Below are positions 6,162 to 10,937 of a DNA stretch of 11,367 nt, piece by piece. The translations under genes and the position numbers were made by a program. The stretch lies in the NCBI GenBank assembly GCA_026987995.1, contig JALSMC010000222.1, positions 1 to 11,367 of the forward strand, written 5' to 3'. Positions within the stretch are counted from its first letter, which is position 1; every line of letters begins with the position of its first letter. The DNA is from Sulfurimonas sp. Lineage in GTDB: Bacteria > Campylobacterota > Campylobacteria > Campylobacterales > Sulfurimonadaceae. Below the pieces are notes generated by a model. It was given only the letters and a program-made list of their open reading frames with translations. It was not told where the DNA came from and did not search any database.

Positions 6162-6800
6162 TTAAAGTTTAACTAAAAATGAACCAGGTTCTACTTTTGA
6201 ACGAAGAGTACGTCTAGCATTTTTAGCCTCATGTGCATTTTTAAATGGACCGACAAGTACTTTGTTAAGGTTTGCAACTTTATGAAACTTATAACTATAA
6301 CCAAGTTTTGTAATTGAGTCTAAAAATTTTTTATTTGGTTTGTACTTTGAGAATGATCCAACTTGAATATAGTAAGAAACAGTAGATGCTTTACTTATAG
6401 GTGTTACAGTTTTTGCTACTACTGGTTTCTTAGCAACAGGTTTTTTCTCTATAACAGGTGTTTGTACTTCAATAACTTCTACCGATGTTTCAGCTAAACT
6501 CTCTTCTTTGAGTTTTTGAGCAATGAGTGCAAGATCTTCATCTGAACTTGTCTCCTCTTCTACAACTACTTCTTCAAAAAGAGGTTCTTCTTGAGTTTGC
6601 AGTACTTGACCTTGTGGTTCTTCTGGAAGAACTGCTTGAGGAAGGTTATCTGTTCCATTAGAACTGAGAGAATTCATTAGCATTACAACAATGATAAGTA
6701 TAACACCTAGTGTTGCAACTGCTAATACTACTTTTTTATTAGAATTATTATTTGTATCTTTATTTAAAATTATATCGTTGAGTTCATTTTTATCATTCAT
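6162..6800 (-). CDS. SPOR-domain inner-membrane protein
   Basis: Probably a bitopic protein that binds denuded glycan strands at the division septum. Residues 1-23 are polar and cytoplasmic, and residues 24-43 form one membrane helix (VVLAVATLGVILIIVVMLMN). A long acidic periplasmic linker (about 60-118, rich in Glu) is followed by a Lys/Pro/Val spacer (118-135, KKPVAKKPVVAK). The SPOR domain at about 141-212 begins YYIQVGSFSK, has the second half-repeat KVLVGPFKNAHEAKNA, and ends SFLVKL. The ATG at 6800 follows a GAGGAAAG ribosome site and a good -10, so the start is well supported. The gene heads an operon with trpE (20 bp downstream) and aroE; the metabolic genes seem unrelated in function. 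It resembles FtsN or DedD in layout, but the short SPOR-only homology does not allow a specific name. Confidence 0.88.
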   Translation of the reverse strand: MNDKNELNDIILNKDTNNNSNKKVVLAVATLGVILIIVVMLMNSLSSNGTDNLPQAVLPEEPQGQVLQTQEEPLFEEVVVEEETSSDEDLALIAQKLKEESLAETSVEVIEVQTPVIEKKPVAKKPVVAKTVTPISKASTVSYYIQVGSFSKYKPNKKFLDSITKLGYSYKFHKVANLNKVLVGPFKNAHEAKNARRTLRSKVEPGSFLVKL

Positions 6801-6938: not shown

Positions 6939-7481
6939 TCACATATGTTTGGACCAAGAAGCTCCACGTTCTTTAGCATATACTTCATAAGGAAGTGTAA
7001 GTATATTGTACTCATCAGGCATATCTGCATTTGGAAACATTCGCCACTGTTTTGGTTGCTTAGCTGCTAGTTTCATACTTATCATTTTACCTAGTTGAAT
7101 GGCTTCAGCTAAAGTGGTATGCCCTTTATGTATATAGACATGAAGATGACCTTCTGTTTTTGTTTTATAAGCAGTAAAGTTTATATAACCCTCTTCACGT
7201 AGAAGAAGTTGTGCTTTATGGTAAAAACGCTCAGGGTCACGACCATTGTAGTCGATGACAATATTTTCTACTTTAGTATGTTTGTTTACAAGAGAGTGGG
7301 CAACAGTAATGTCACCTTTGATATGTTGGTTGATAATTGACTGACTAAGTGTAGCATTTACTTTTTCAAACTTATTGTAAAAAGTTCTACCTTTAAAGGA
7401 GAGTTTGTCAACTACAGAGTCTCTTTTAATCCAGTAGTGATCACTCACCATTTTTATAAGTTTAAGATCCATAGAAGTCAA
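6939..7481 (-). CDS. DUF1882-like conserved protein of unknown function, TTG start
   Basis: I recognise this as the type of protein annotated DUF1882 in Campylobacterota; its function is not known to me. It is 180 residues, soluble, basic, with no signal or membrane segment. Noteworthy blocks are [15 protein letters not shown] (73-87), [16 protein letters not shown] (105-120) and [20 protein letters not shown] (149-168). Together they recall the order of motifs in archaeo-eukaryotic primase/LigD-type polymerase folds (acidic strand end, Gly-His-x-His-hydrophobic, then FP...N.L.LP), but the second acid of a DxD is missing. That link is inference only. The TTG start at 7481 has a strong AGAGAGGA ribosome site 8 nt upstream; the ATG at 7472 (Met4) would be 17 nt away, so TTG is preferred. 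It lies 25 bp after glyA, probably in the same operon. Confidence 0.8.
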
Positions 7482-7506
7482 AATTTTTATCCTCTCTTAA
7501 GTACGA

Positions 7507-8754
7507 CTAGTAAGTCGGTTGATTATAAATTACAAAGTTCTGTGCAAGTTCTTTGAGTTCTGCTTTAATAGTTGCTTGAAGCTCAGTGTTGTTGATGTCA
7601 TCTAAAACATCAGCCATTTTATTACCAATAAGTTCAAACTCTTTTTCTTTCATACCACGGCTTGTAAGTGCAGGAGAACCAACACGAATACCTGAAGTTA
7701 CAAAAGGAGAACGAGTCTCACCTGGAACAGTGTTCTTATTGATAGTGATTCCTGCATTTCCTAAAGCTGCATCAGCATCTTTACCGGAGATCTCTTTACC
7801 TACAAAAGATACAAGGATTAAGTGGTTATCAGTTCCACCGGAGACTACATCGTATCCGCGTTTAACCATAACTTCACCAAGAACTTTTGCATTTGCTTTT
7901 ACTTGTTTTGCATATGTTTTCCACTCTGGAGATAAGTTGTATTTAAATCCAACTGCTTTTGCAGCGATAACATGAACAAGTGGTCCACCTTGTAAAGCTG
8001 GAAATATTGCAGAGTTAATTTTCTTTGCGATATCTTCATCATTTGTCATTATCATTCCACCACGAGGACCTGCAAGAGTCTTGTGTGTAGTTGTAGTTAC
8101 AACATGAGCATGAGGGAATGGACTAGGGTGCTCACCCGCTGCAACTAAACCAGCGATGTGTGCGATGTCAGCAAAAAGAATTGCACCAACGGCATCAGCT
8201 ATTTCACGAAACTTAGCAAAGTCAATTTCACGAGCATAAGCAGAAGCACCACATACGATGATTTTAGGCTTAACAATTTGAGCAATATCTAAAACCCTTT
8301 CATAGTTAATGCGACCATCAAGTTCAACACCATAAGTAAATGAAGAGTAGTTCTTACCAGAAAAAGAGGGCTTAGAACCATGTGTTAAGTGTCCACCATG
8401 GCTTAAATCCATTCCTAGTAGTTTATCACCTGCTTTAAGAAGTGCAGCATAAACGGCACCATTTGCTTGGCTTCCTGAGTGAGGCTGAACATTTGCATAG
8501 TTACATCCAAAAAGCTCACAAGCTCTGTCTATTGCTAATTGCTCAACACCATCTGCATATTCACAACCACCATAGTAGCGTTTTTGAGGGTAACCCTCAG
8601 CATACTTATTTGTAAAGACTGAACCCATTGCTTCCATAACTGCTGGAAGTGTGAAGTTCTCAGATGCAATCATCTCTAAGTGGTCTGTTTGACGTTCTAA
8701 CTCTTTTTCGCATAAATCGAATATTTCGCTATCGTATTCTTTTAAAAAACTCAT
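7507..8754 (-). CDS. glyA: Serine hydroxymethyltransferase
   Basis: PLP enzyme that interconverts serine plus tetrahydrofolate with glycine plus 5,10-methylene-tetrahydrofolate, supplying one-carbon units in the cytoplasm. The substrate region is [12 protein letters not shown] (28-39). [15 protein letters not shown] (49-63) is the family signature around the folate and substrate site. Asp196 and His199 in [10 protein letters not shown] contact the cofactor. [15 protein letters not shown] (219-233) holds the PLP-linked Lys225, and [14 protein letters not shown] contains the carboxylate-binding arginine. The 415 residues match the family. The ATG at 8754 has an AAGGAA ribosome site 9 nt upstream. 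The DUF1882-like gene follows at 25 bp, and a sensor-kinase-like gene lies 59 bp upstream on the same strand. Confidence 0.98.
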
Positions 8755-8784
8755 GGTATAAAATTCCTTGTTATAATTAAAGTG

Positions 8785-8790
8785 ATTGTA
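8785..8790 (-). promoter_or_regulatory. Candidate -10 box for glyA
   Basis: The minus strand reads TACAAT 30 nt before the glyA ATG, which would give a leader of about 24 nt containing the AAGGAA site at 8764-8769. A closer TATAAC at 8770-8775 would start transcription too near the ribosome site to be useful. No hairpin terminator separates the upstream gene, so read-through from it is also possible. Confidence 0.35.
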
Positions 8791-8813
8791 CTAAAAAAGA
8801 ACTAATAAAAGGC

Positions 8814-10937
8814 TTATTTATTAAGATATTTATCAATTGAATTATTAATTAGTGCTAGCTCTTTAGTGTATTGTGTTACGAGTTCTGATAGGTAATCATA
8901 CTTCTTAAGAGAGAGCTTTTTTAACATATCAGTTACTATAAGATGTAGCTTTTCTGCTCCAATTGAGCCAGTTAGACCTTTAATGTCAATACATAAAATT
9001 CTAAGTTGTTCATATCTAAAGTCTTGAAGTAGCTTATTAAATACTTTATTTGTATCGCCATAAGCATCCCTAAATTCAGAAAGTATCTCTTTATAAAACA
9101 CTTCACTTGAACTTGATTTGGATATTCCAAGTGTAATGTTTAGTCCATCAAGTTCAATTATTTCTGTCTGCTGCACTGGAGCTTTTTTTGTCTCTTTATG
9201 TAGTGTATTTTGGATAAATATAGAAAATACTGTATATAACTTCTCTTTTTCTAAAGGTTTAGCCATGTATCCATTCATTCCTGATGCGAACATTTTTGCT
9301 ATTTCATCACTTGATGTTAAAGCACTTAGGGCAATGATAGGTATACCATCATACTCTTTGTGCTCTCTTATTTTTATTGATGCTGTATAACCATCCATAA
9401 CAGGCATATTGATATCCATAAATATCATATCAAAACTTGCATCCTCTAAAAGTATTTTTAGAGCTTCTTTACCATGTTTAGCTACTGTGATATTCATATG
9501 TGATTTGTTAAGTATACCAACAAATACTTTTTGATTAATGATATTATCTTCAACTAAAAGAATTTTTTTATCTTGAAACTTAGAAAAATCTCCAAGAGAA
9601 ATATTTCTTGTATTTTGAAATGAGTTTCTATGGACAAGAGCAGTTCCTGTATTTATAACACCATTACTCGTTATTTTAGAAGTATCATGTACATTGTAAA
9701 AAAGTTGATTCAGTACATCAGAGGTTTGCCATATAGTTAGAGGTTTAGAAATCTTGATATCTGCAATTGCTGTATTTGGAAACTCTTTTTCAATTTCAAA
9801 GAGATTAGATGTTGCAATGATTTTACTATTTATATTCTCTAGTTCAGCTACTACTTTGTGTGTAAAAAGCTTTTCATCAAGAAATATAATGTCATATATG
9901 TCAAAGTATTTAAAGTATGAAGTGTATTCACGCTTATTTATGATTTTTACATTGTGGTTTAAATCTTTTAAAATACTTGCAATATTTTCTGCACTTGTCG
10001 AAGAAGAGTCAATAAGTAAAATATTTTTTTGTTTTATCTGTTTAGGGACAGTGTACTTATTTTGAATTGGTTCAGGTTTTTCTATAGTGTATGGAATAGT
10101 GAAAACAAATTCAAGATACTGATCAGTATCATTTCTAGCGATTAAATCTCCCTTCATAAGCTTGGAGAGTTCTTTGGCTATAAACAAACCTAAACTATCG
10201 TACTCCTCTGTATTATCATTATAGTTAGCTTGAAAGATATTAAGTCCATCTTCTACATTTATTTTTAAATCACTACTAATAGTAAATGAGAGTTGATCAT
10301 CTTTTGAAAAAAGGCTAGTTTGTTTTATGTTCAAAGTAAGCTTTGTAGATGAGTTTTCTACACAATACAGAAGAATATTTACCAGTACCTTGCTAAGATT
10401 TAATGTGTCAGAGTTTATCTCTTGAACGATACTTTTTTGGACATCGTAGATGAGTTCAAATTCCTTTCCTCTAATGTTTGCTTTGAGTGTTCCGGAAACA
10501 TCATTGAGAAGATTTGAAAGTTTTAGTTTTTGATGGTCTATAACTACTTTGTTCGATTTAATTCGTAAGAAGTCTATGAGGTTTGTTGTTATAGCGAGAA
10601 GTTGGTTTTCTGATTTTGCAACATTTGAAGTACTTATGTTTTCTTTTGTAATGTCATAGATGTCTTCGCCCATTTTTGAGATGATATCATCTTGCTTTTT
10701 ATTTTTTTTGTGAGTAAGTTCTTCTTCTTCTTTTTGTTTCTTTTTAAATTTTTCAATTTTATCAGAGGATAAGAAAAGTGCAAAAAGGCTAATGATTCCA
10801 AGACCAAAAAGTGCCATCCAGAGGGTAAAATCCTCTCCATCTGTATCAATAGTATCAAGGGAACCTAAAGAGATTATAGACTCTGCAAAAAGATTAACTT
10901 GTGAAATTATAAAAACATAAAGTAAAATTTTCTTCAT
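8814..10937 (-). CDS. Hybrid sensor-kinase-like protein with degenerate kinase and HPt domains
   Basis: The 707-residue protein has a signal peptide (1-18, ending LFA), a short periplasmic stretch, one membrane helix (about 39-57) and a Lys/Glu coiled coil (58-83). A HisKA-like region (about 84-131) and a GHKL ATPase-like region (about 140-284) follow, then receiver 1 (304-415), receiver 2 (457-575) and an HPt-like helical domain (about 592-707). Key residues are altered. KMGEDI (88-93) stands where MSHEI is expected, so Glu91 replaces the phospho-histidine. The essential N-box Asn is Tyr191, the DxGxG box reads SDLKI, and the GTGLGL box reads DSLGL. The HPt HxxKG reads IDIKG, with Ile650 for His. 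Receiver 2 is complete: Glu463, Asp464, Asp508, Ser538, Lys560. Receiver 1 keeps Asp354, Thr376 and Lys398 but has only one acidic partner, Asp310. It is probably a signalling pseudokinase or scaffold that receives phosphate from another kinase. Confidence 0.88.
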   Translation of the reverse strand: MKKILLYVFIISQVNLFAESIISLGSLDTIDTDGEDFTLWMALFGLGIISLFALFLSSDKIEKFKKKQKEEEELTHKKNKKQDDIISKMGEDIYDITKENISTSNVAKSENQLLAITTNLIDFLRIKSNKVVIDHQKLKLSNLLNDVSGTLKANIRGKEFELIYDVQKSIVQEINSDTLNLSKVLVNILLYCVENSSTKLTLNIKQTSLFSKDDQLSFTISSDLKINVEDGLNIFQANYNDNTEEYDSLGLFIAKELSKLMKGDLIARNDTDQYLEFVFTIPYTIEKPEPIQNKYTVPKQIKQKNILLIDSSSTSAENIASILKDLNHNVKIINKREYTSYFKYFDIYDIIFLDEKLFTHKVVAELENINSKIIATSNLFEIEKEFPNTAIADIKISKPLTIWQTSDVLNQLFYNVHDTSKITSNGVINTGTALVHRNSFQNTRNISLGDFSKFQDKKILLVEDNIINQKVFVGILNKSHMNITVAKHGKEALKILLEDASFDMIFMDINMPVMDGYTASIKIREHKEYDGIPIIALSALTSSDEIAKMFASGMNGYMAKPLEKEKLYTVFSIFIQNTLHKETKKAPVQQTEIIELDGLNITLGISKSSSSEVFYKEILSEFRDAYGDTNKVFNKLLQDFRYEQLRILCIDIKGLTGSIGAEKLHLIVTDMLKKLSLKKYDYLSELVTQYTKELALINNSIDKYLNK

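Follow-up and report, generated by a model that had tools for sequence, protein, structure and literature searches.

A hybrid histidine-kinase-like protein of Sulfurimonas that lacks both phospho-histidines and keeps one intact receiver

The window analysed here is a contig of 11,367 nucleotides from the draft genome of a Sulfurimonas sp. (assembly GCA_026987995.1, contig JALSMC010000222.1). It carries an open reading frame (ORF), named X here, whose product is built like a membrane-anchored hybrid histidine kinase, lacks the phospho-histidine (His) of the kinase and that of the histidine phosphotransfer (HPt) domain, and keeps one receiver with a complete active site. X occupies 8814..10937 on the minus strand, the strand of all its features given below. 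The ORF listing and the DNA agree on 707 codons, an ATG start and an open frame throughout, as an earlier note on this sequence had described; Pfam supports the domain reading. Its neighbours are lysS and glyA, which share its strand and are each separated from it by about 60 bases. These are the names that we take the two genes to bear, read by eye from their sequences as were ispDF, PgpA, ftsL, proA and HP1021 elsewhere in the analysis.

The domains of X follow one another in the order of a dimerisation and histidine-phosphotransfer (DHp)-like hairpin, a catalytic and ATP-binding (CA)-like domain, receiver 1, receiver 2 and an HPt-like domain. Hydropathy places a hydrophobic segment, either a signal peptide or a first transmembrane helix, at residues 1-22 (10872..10937), followed by a stub of about 15 residues and a transmembrane helix at residues 37-57 or so (10767..10829). 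The charged stretch beyond this helix is probably coiled-coil-like. Pfam finds receiver 2 clearly (88 bits) and leaves HATPase_c just under its cut-off (25.2 against 26.4 bits); neither HisKA nor Hpt is listed for X at E<=1.

The DHp-like hairpin covers residues 85-127 (10557..10685) and the CA-like domain, placed by Pfam and alignments, residues 150-285 approximately (10083..10490). Glu91 (10665..10667) aligns with the His of HELRTP in canonical kinases, and a separate HMMER alignment to the solved hybrid kinase 7p8e again puts the Glu of the family on the His. Tyr191 (10365..10367) replaces the Mg-binding residue, the second Asn of the canonical N box. Both glycine boxes are degraded, DxG to SDLK and GxGLG to YDSLGL. 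The earlier note had named these replacements, together with Ile650 at the HPt site, and the DNA and the alignments agree with it. A misaligned His was considered as an explanation and is ruled out by independent alignments at the kinase and HPt sites alike. A profile of 31 X proteins matches the solved kinase region of RetS (6dk7 and 6dk8, positions 80-301, E 1.7e-18) and HK853 (65-304). Thus X has the DHp and CA fold of a HisKA-type kinase by profile, and lacks the phospho-acceptor His and the ATP-site residues. The full-length AlphaFold2 model has a mean predicted local distance difference test (pLDDT) score of 48.3, too poor for use, and cannot confirm the DHp and CA fold, for which the backing is the sequence profile against solved kinases (profile positions 65-304).

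Both the hairpin and the ATP lid are shortened. From position 91 to Leu120 the hairpin has 30 residues, against 47 in all seven canonical sister kinases described below; the earlier note was right that it is shorter, and the difference is 17 residues instead of about 15. At three loci (L039-L041) it is 21 residues shorter than in these sisters. The short hairpin is common to all nine loci of the window's clade, and other X rows with a residue there have at least 39. The ATP lid (Phe235 to Gly250) has 21 residues in the seven sister kinases and 16 here; among 47 X rows that were measured, 42 have the lid of 16.

Receiver 2 (residues 455-578; 9204..9575) is identified by Pfam, alignment, AlphaFold2 and Foldseek. 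Its active site is complete, with Glu463/Asp464, the phospho-acceptor Asp508 (9414..9416; DNA and alignment), Ser538 and Lys560, all that PF00072 calls for and all the functional residues that had been claimed for it. Receiver 1 (residues 303-420; 9678..10031, by alignment) has Ile309 in place of the first acid and so lacks a full active site; Asp310, Asp354 and Lys398 are kept in this copy. Receiver 2 is the most conserved domain of X, with 26% of its columns at >=90% against 0-11% for other segments. In the AlphaFold2 model of residues 450-707 the receiver is predicted with confidence, and a linker of low confidence connects it to a bundle of five helices (mean pLDDT 79.6; predicted template modelling score 0.54; block means 67-97 for receiver 2 and 65-93 for the bundle); the model does not decide whether receiver and HPt dock. 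The 50 Foldseek matches listed for the same model are receivers, receiver-bearing or receiver-like proteins; HPts are absent among them.

The five predicted helices form the HPt-like domain (residues 599-707; 8817..9143; alignments and model), which we call the pseudo-HPt. Where X has Ile650 (8988..8990), live HPts have their His, both in an alignment with six such proteins and in one with nine (five shared), and so do two solved HPts. A profile search matches the solved HPts 7c1i (E 6.6e-4) and 4pac (0.0024), the top match being a designed helical protein (4e-4). Pfam Hpt is matched at E<=1 by 16 of 28 family members, and not by the X of the window. The domain therefore has the helical bundle of an HPt and its signature glycine at H+4 (Gly654, 8976..8978), without the phospho-His. 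Passages of PMC12632262 put a missing phospho-His at 0.9% of HisKA (722/76,471) and 0.9% of Hpt domains (90/10,312), in censuses that count model-detected domains only, while in this X copy neither His domain is detected. Because each base rate is 0.9%, a protein missing both is far from typical.

X belongs to a family of which 46 rows of at least 520 aa, the window included, were compared, 45 of them readable at position 91. Two loci were dropped from these counts and from the tree (L045, in two fragments, and L054); L055 has no position 91 and stands outside the tree, and L001-L004 repeat L035, L036, L037 and L045. By our own reading the gene occurs in 22 of 135 genomes of the genus, a raw tally of 66 taking in paralogues. 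Sampling the order more widely gave matches at E<=1e-50 in 24 of 298 genomes, two of which are also in the genus set.

A kinase His occurs in none of the 45 readable rows. Position 91 is Glu in 33, Lys in five, Asp in three, Asn in two, Arg in one and Ala in one, with one gap. Position 191 is Tyr in 23/46 and Tyr or Phe in 32/46, the N-box Asn being present in seven (L077-L082, L085); position 650 is Ile in 8/46 and the HPt His in three (L077-L079). Glu91, Tyr191 and Ile650 (33/45, 23/46 and 8/46) are thus not the conserved substitutions that had been envisaged. What the family conserves is the lack of catalytic residues at these sites. Canonical residues in relatives, which would have pointed to decay of this copy, are confined to seven distant members with the N-box Asn, three of which have the HPt His.

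The receiver 2 Asp is present in 43 of the 46 rows, which also have Asp464 and Lys560 intact, and the HPt His is absent from 43, L080-L082 lacking both and L077-L079 having both. These two counts would suit a phosphate sink, in which receiver 2 draws phosphate from a shared kinase and hydrolyses it, the dead HPt blocking its passage onward. For such a task a receiver alone suffices and the retained DHp-like, CA-like and pseudo-HPt parts go unexplained, so that we consider a sink quite improbable.

The tree drew on the alignment columns of DHp, CA and receiver 2, with positions 91 and 191 excluded, and was rooted on 13 hybrid kinases chosen for their ordinary H box. All trees here are quick searches without bootstrap. 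The X rows form one clade of 45, supported at 99% by the SH-like approximate likelihood ratio test (SH-aLRT). Its sister group is made up of seven canonical kinases from the same genus, and the 52 together also have 99%. Because the His-less rows form one clade, the loss is old; on the simplest reading the kinase His was lost once, at the base of the clade. Members L077-L079 lack the kinase His and keep the N box, DxG and most of the G2 box. The residues of the ATP site appear to have been lost after the His, in steps.

Selection was estimated by the Nei-Gojobori method as the ratio of nonsynonymous to synonymous rates (dN/dS) in nine pairs, many with dS near or above 1, so that the ratios are rough. 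The whole gene gives 0.08-0.19. Among its parts, the CA-like domain has 0.05-0.12 (nine pairs), the DHp-like hairpin 0.05-0.09 (the seven of nine pairs where dS is finite), receiver 1 has 0.03-0.29, receiver 2 has 0.03-0.10 and the HPt-like domain 0.03-0.20 (eight pairs where dS is finite), against 0.17-0.56 for residues 1-84. Rough as the ratios are, the dead domains are held by purifying selection and do not drift freely. A decaying gene without function could draw on the patchy presence in 22/135 genomes and on genome G025 (L036/L002), where an in-frame TAA lies between the N-terminal hydrophobic segment and the transmembrane helix, the remaining frame being open. Against decay, 20 of the 22 genus genomes have no stop inside the match, dN/dS is low, and the losses are shared across the order. 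The copy of G128 is in pieces, probably through an assembly error, since the matches to glyA and SPOR on its contig are broken up as well. With no kinase His among the 45 readable rows, one old clade with the loss at its base, and purifying selection, decay is hardly credible and we reject it; the maintained pseudokinase proposed in the earlier note is upheld.

Two paralogous groups share receiver 2 and the HPt-like domain with X, and in a tree of this pair each of the three groups falls on one side of a branch (98%, 94% and 100%). The first group consists of the sister hybrid kinases, present at E<=1e-150 in 18 of 135 genus genomes, of which seven (L056-L062) entered the trees. They resemble X in domain order, in joining it in the clade of 52, in the absent HPt His and in the retained Asp651, and they differ in having a kinase His (18/18) and a mostly canonical ATP site (N box, DxG and GxGLG canonical in 17/18), with a lid of 21 and a hairpin of 47 residues in the seven measured. 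A single sister kinase (L141, genome G046) has the His while its ATP site is degraded, so that within this family a kinase has also died by another route. Among the 17 sisters readable at the HPt site (of L126-L143) the His position is Met in 14, Arg in two and Leu in one, followed by Asp in all 17. Because the His is replaced in 17/17, the relay inside these otherwise canonical, live kinases is cut at the HPt.

The second group is a membrane protein with receiver and pseudo-HPt and without a kinase, found in 96/135 genus genomes and in 63 of 79 good ones. Among the 96, 52 proteins were read (53 rows, L125 and L147 being one locus). The receiver is intact in all, and the HPt His is Leu in 52 and Ile in one. 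In 48 of 52 scanned loci (51 distinct, L028 and L144 being one) the gene adjoins rsmH, a name that rests on Pfam MraW for the query used. An example lies at G000:C225:539-1651 (L028), with 51 further distinct relatives, some of which carry a periplasmic domain. A periplasmic domain of about 90 residues is common to long X proteins, sister kinases and long receiver-pseudo-HPt proteins (hhalign 98.4 and 98.6%, the former for long X against sister kinase); the X of the window is too short to hold it. By eye it looks SPOR-like. Pfam remains below cut-off (SPOR E 0.02-0.03 in 2 of 16 N-termini), and its identity as SPOR is not established. A SPOR-domain protein is encoded in the window at 6162-6800 on the minus strand (Pfam 47 bits), three genes downstream of X, and hhalign of the sensor-domain profile of the long receiver-pseudo-HPt proteins against it gives no match.

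Asp651 (8985..8987), the neighbour of the lost HPt His, is invariant in 106 of 106 rows (47 X, 52 receiver-pseudo-HPt and seven sister rows), and in 116/116 across the three protein types once all 17 readable sister kinases join. The same place holds Thr, Asn, Arg or Lys, never Asp, in nine live HPt rows of other hybrid kinases. Gly654 is kept in 46/47 X and 51/52 receiver-pseudo-HPt proteins. At the HPt site L077-L079 read His-Asp, and for this reason the family may descend from an HPt with His-Asp, in which case three or more losses removed the His and none the Asp; the alternative is that the His was regained in these three. A motif census of live HPts over the loci, including those of an Hpt family search, matched four, L077 and L079 among them, and was not taken further.

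The position of Asp651 raises the possibility of a receiver phosphatase, in which the pseudo-HPt acts on the phospho-receiver and Asp651 takes part in hydrolysis. The invariant residue adjoins the position that faces the receiver active site in live HPts, and the nine live rows have other residues there. The known receiver phosphatases CheZ, CheX and Rap use an amide residue, however, and X has Gly three residues beyond Asp651 and Leu, Ile or Val four residues beyond it, with Asn658 (+7) common only in the paralogues. The Asp also stands beside a live His in L077-L079, and so is perhaps inherited and structural. A phosphatase is thus very unlikely in our estimation.

The neighbourhoods of X were compared in 31 loci (L090-L120), where eight chosen neighbours were scanned with Pfam and all ORFs for kinase motifs. 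In the window's clade glyA adjoins X in 9/9 loci and lysS in 8/9, the upstream gene of L038 being methionine synthase; with these neighbours, a partner encoded beside X in this clade was rejected. Seven of the 31 (L090-L092, L094-L096, L098) have X downstream of ispDF, an orphan regulator, ATP sulfurylase and PgpA; the ATP sulfurylase and a receiver are confirmed by Pfam, ispDF and PgpA are read by eye, and the regulator is presumably HP1021-like. In L108 and L112 a CA-only protein lies directly upstream of X (L108:4443-5966, 508 aa; a 510-aa ORF in L112), with an ATPase domain and no recognisable DHp. The X of L108 has lost the His and kept its ATP-site motifs, so two ATP-site proteins adjoin there, neither with a DHp phospho-His. 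At L110 and L111 two X genes lie near each other, with a gene of about 170 codons between them. The genome of the window holds 26 HisKA matches, 17 of them over the cut-off and none next to X on this contig; because of these matches, candidate kinases for X exist in its own genome.

The analysis establishes the losses and their age, the selection, the intact receiver and the module shared with the paralogues. As a role for X we tentatively favour, at somewhat less than even confidence, a membrane-anchored and probably dimeric scaffold that takes phosphate on receiver 2 from a separate kinase and whose pseudo-HPt reads the state of that receiver. A scaffold is favoured because receiver 2 can accept phosphate and nothing in X can give or relay it. 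Receiver 2 would be the sole live chemistry of the protein, another kinase phosphorylating Asp508 in trans. The pseudo-HPt, having no His, would not pass the phosphate on. It keeps the face with which an HPt meets a receiver (Gly654, Asp651), most likely binds receiver 2 or the receiver of a paralogue, and would read the phosphorylation state without relay. The dead DHp and CA parts would be kept as folded pieces for dimerisation or heterodimerisation.

Several observations weigh against this scaffold. The H+4 position is Asp (16) or Glu (1) in 17/17 readable sister kinases. Passages of PMC6341664 place the H+4 Gly at the HPt-receiver active site and report that exchanging it in Ypd1 impairs phosphotransfer but leaves the affinity of binding intact; because binding is spared, conservation of Gly654 is weaker evidence of docking. 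A recurrent partner kinase was not found in the 31 neighbourhoods, where an ordinary kinase adjoins X once (L110). Within the genus, X does not co-occur significantly with the sister kinase (6/22, p=0.08) or with the receiver-pseudo-HPt protein (18/22, p=0.31). Lastly, L080-L082 lack Asp464, Asp508 and Lys560, so a live receiver is dispensable in some members. The residues there are Pro, Asn and Thr, respectively, yet the N box and DxG are intact, a near-reverse of the window's copy.

A serious rival, which we rate as doubtful, is that X acts allosterically, as RetS and DivL do, joining a live kinase in a heterodimer or complex and switching that kinase's activity, receiver 2 serving only to tune the effect. 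It would explain why DHp-like and CA-like parts are under purifying selection and would fit the RetS match given above. In kinase-regulator complexes receivers dock on the DHp hairpin, of which the window's clade has lost 17-21 residues, and because the hairpin is cut the DivL model fits this clade poorly. The arrangement in L110 also speaks for it: a sensor kinase with SBP_bac_3, HisKA and HATPase_c (L110:3470-6946, minus strand) starts within the last codons of X on the same strand (6942-9428, minus strand, by the longest-ORF reading), and is possibly the partner of X in that genome. This arrangement is not seen elsewhere among the 31 neighbourhoods. Pairs of a dead and a live kinase are documented in passages of PMC9491836 (ChrS/HrrS) and PMC4211667 (DivL/CckA); the latter also describe DivL as keeping the other kinase motifs and binding its regulator canonically. 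An allosteric partner leaves unexplained, moreover, the invariance of Asp651 and the kinase-less paralogue.

Some features of X have precedents in known systems. RcsD is not known to have a live receiver, nor RetS an HPt-like domain. AHP6, the pseudo-HPt of Arabidopsis, has an HPt fold without the His and interferes with a phosphorelay; it is a free plant protein, whereas the pseudo-HPt of X is fused to a receiver and has the invariant Asp of its family. RetS of Pseudomonas is like X a hybrid kinase, matches it over the kinase-like region (6dk7, 6dk8), and regulates another kinase. The enterobacterial RcsD is, from passages of PMC13317618, a membrane protein with an inactive region and a hybrid-kinase architecture, as is X; it is also its mirror image, with a catalytic His that passes phosphate on, while in X the receiver is live and the HPt dead. 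The Caulobacter pseudokinase DivL has lost the His throughout its family and has a kinase fold without kinase activity, as passages of PMC4211667 describe, and differs from X in keeping the N, G1, F and G2 boxes and binding a phospho-regulator canonically. X has lost these motifs and, in the window's clade, much of the hairpin, and carries a pseudo-HPt along with its two receivers.

Pseudo-histidine kinases are a named class, described in passages of PMC12632262 as having the kinase fold without kinase functions and acting within a signalling network. X has lost the kinase residues; given a part in such a network, its family would join this class as a variant with a live receiver and a dead HPt. 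Among the titles and abstract openings listed by a search of open-licence papers, none described the X family or any hybrid kinase in which both His sites are dead. The invariance of Asp651 is new here.

The receiver and pseudo-HPt may together be a signalling unit, in which the HPt would have been turned, probably repeatedly, from a phosphate carrier into a fixed reader or hydrolase of receiver phosphorylation, marked by the invariant Asp at the former His site. X would represent this unit as a membrane dimer, the sister kinases would join it to a kinase, and the rsmH-linked protein, which lacks a kinase, would be the version with the widest distribution, the three perhaps serving a joint envelope or division route in Sulfurimonas-type bacteria that bypasses any HPt His. 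We regard this wider proposal as unlikely. Pseudo-histidine kinases are known mostly singly, and here one family lines up the stages of loss: a live kinase, the His lost with ATP-site motifs kept, the ATP site lost, the sensor lost, and much of the hairpin lost with one receiver live. Pfam detects neither dead His domain of X, so that surveys of detected domains would miss it. In its dead HPt, Asp651 offers a single residue for asking whether an HPt can become a reader of receiver phosphorylation.

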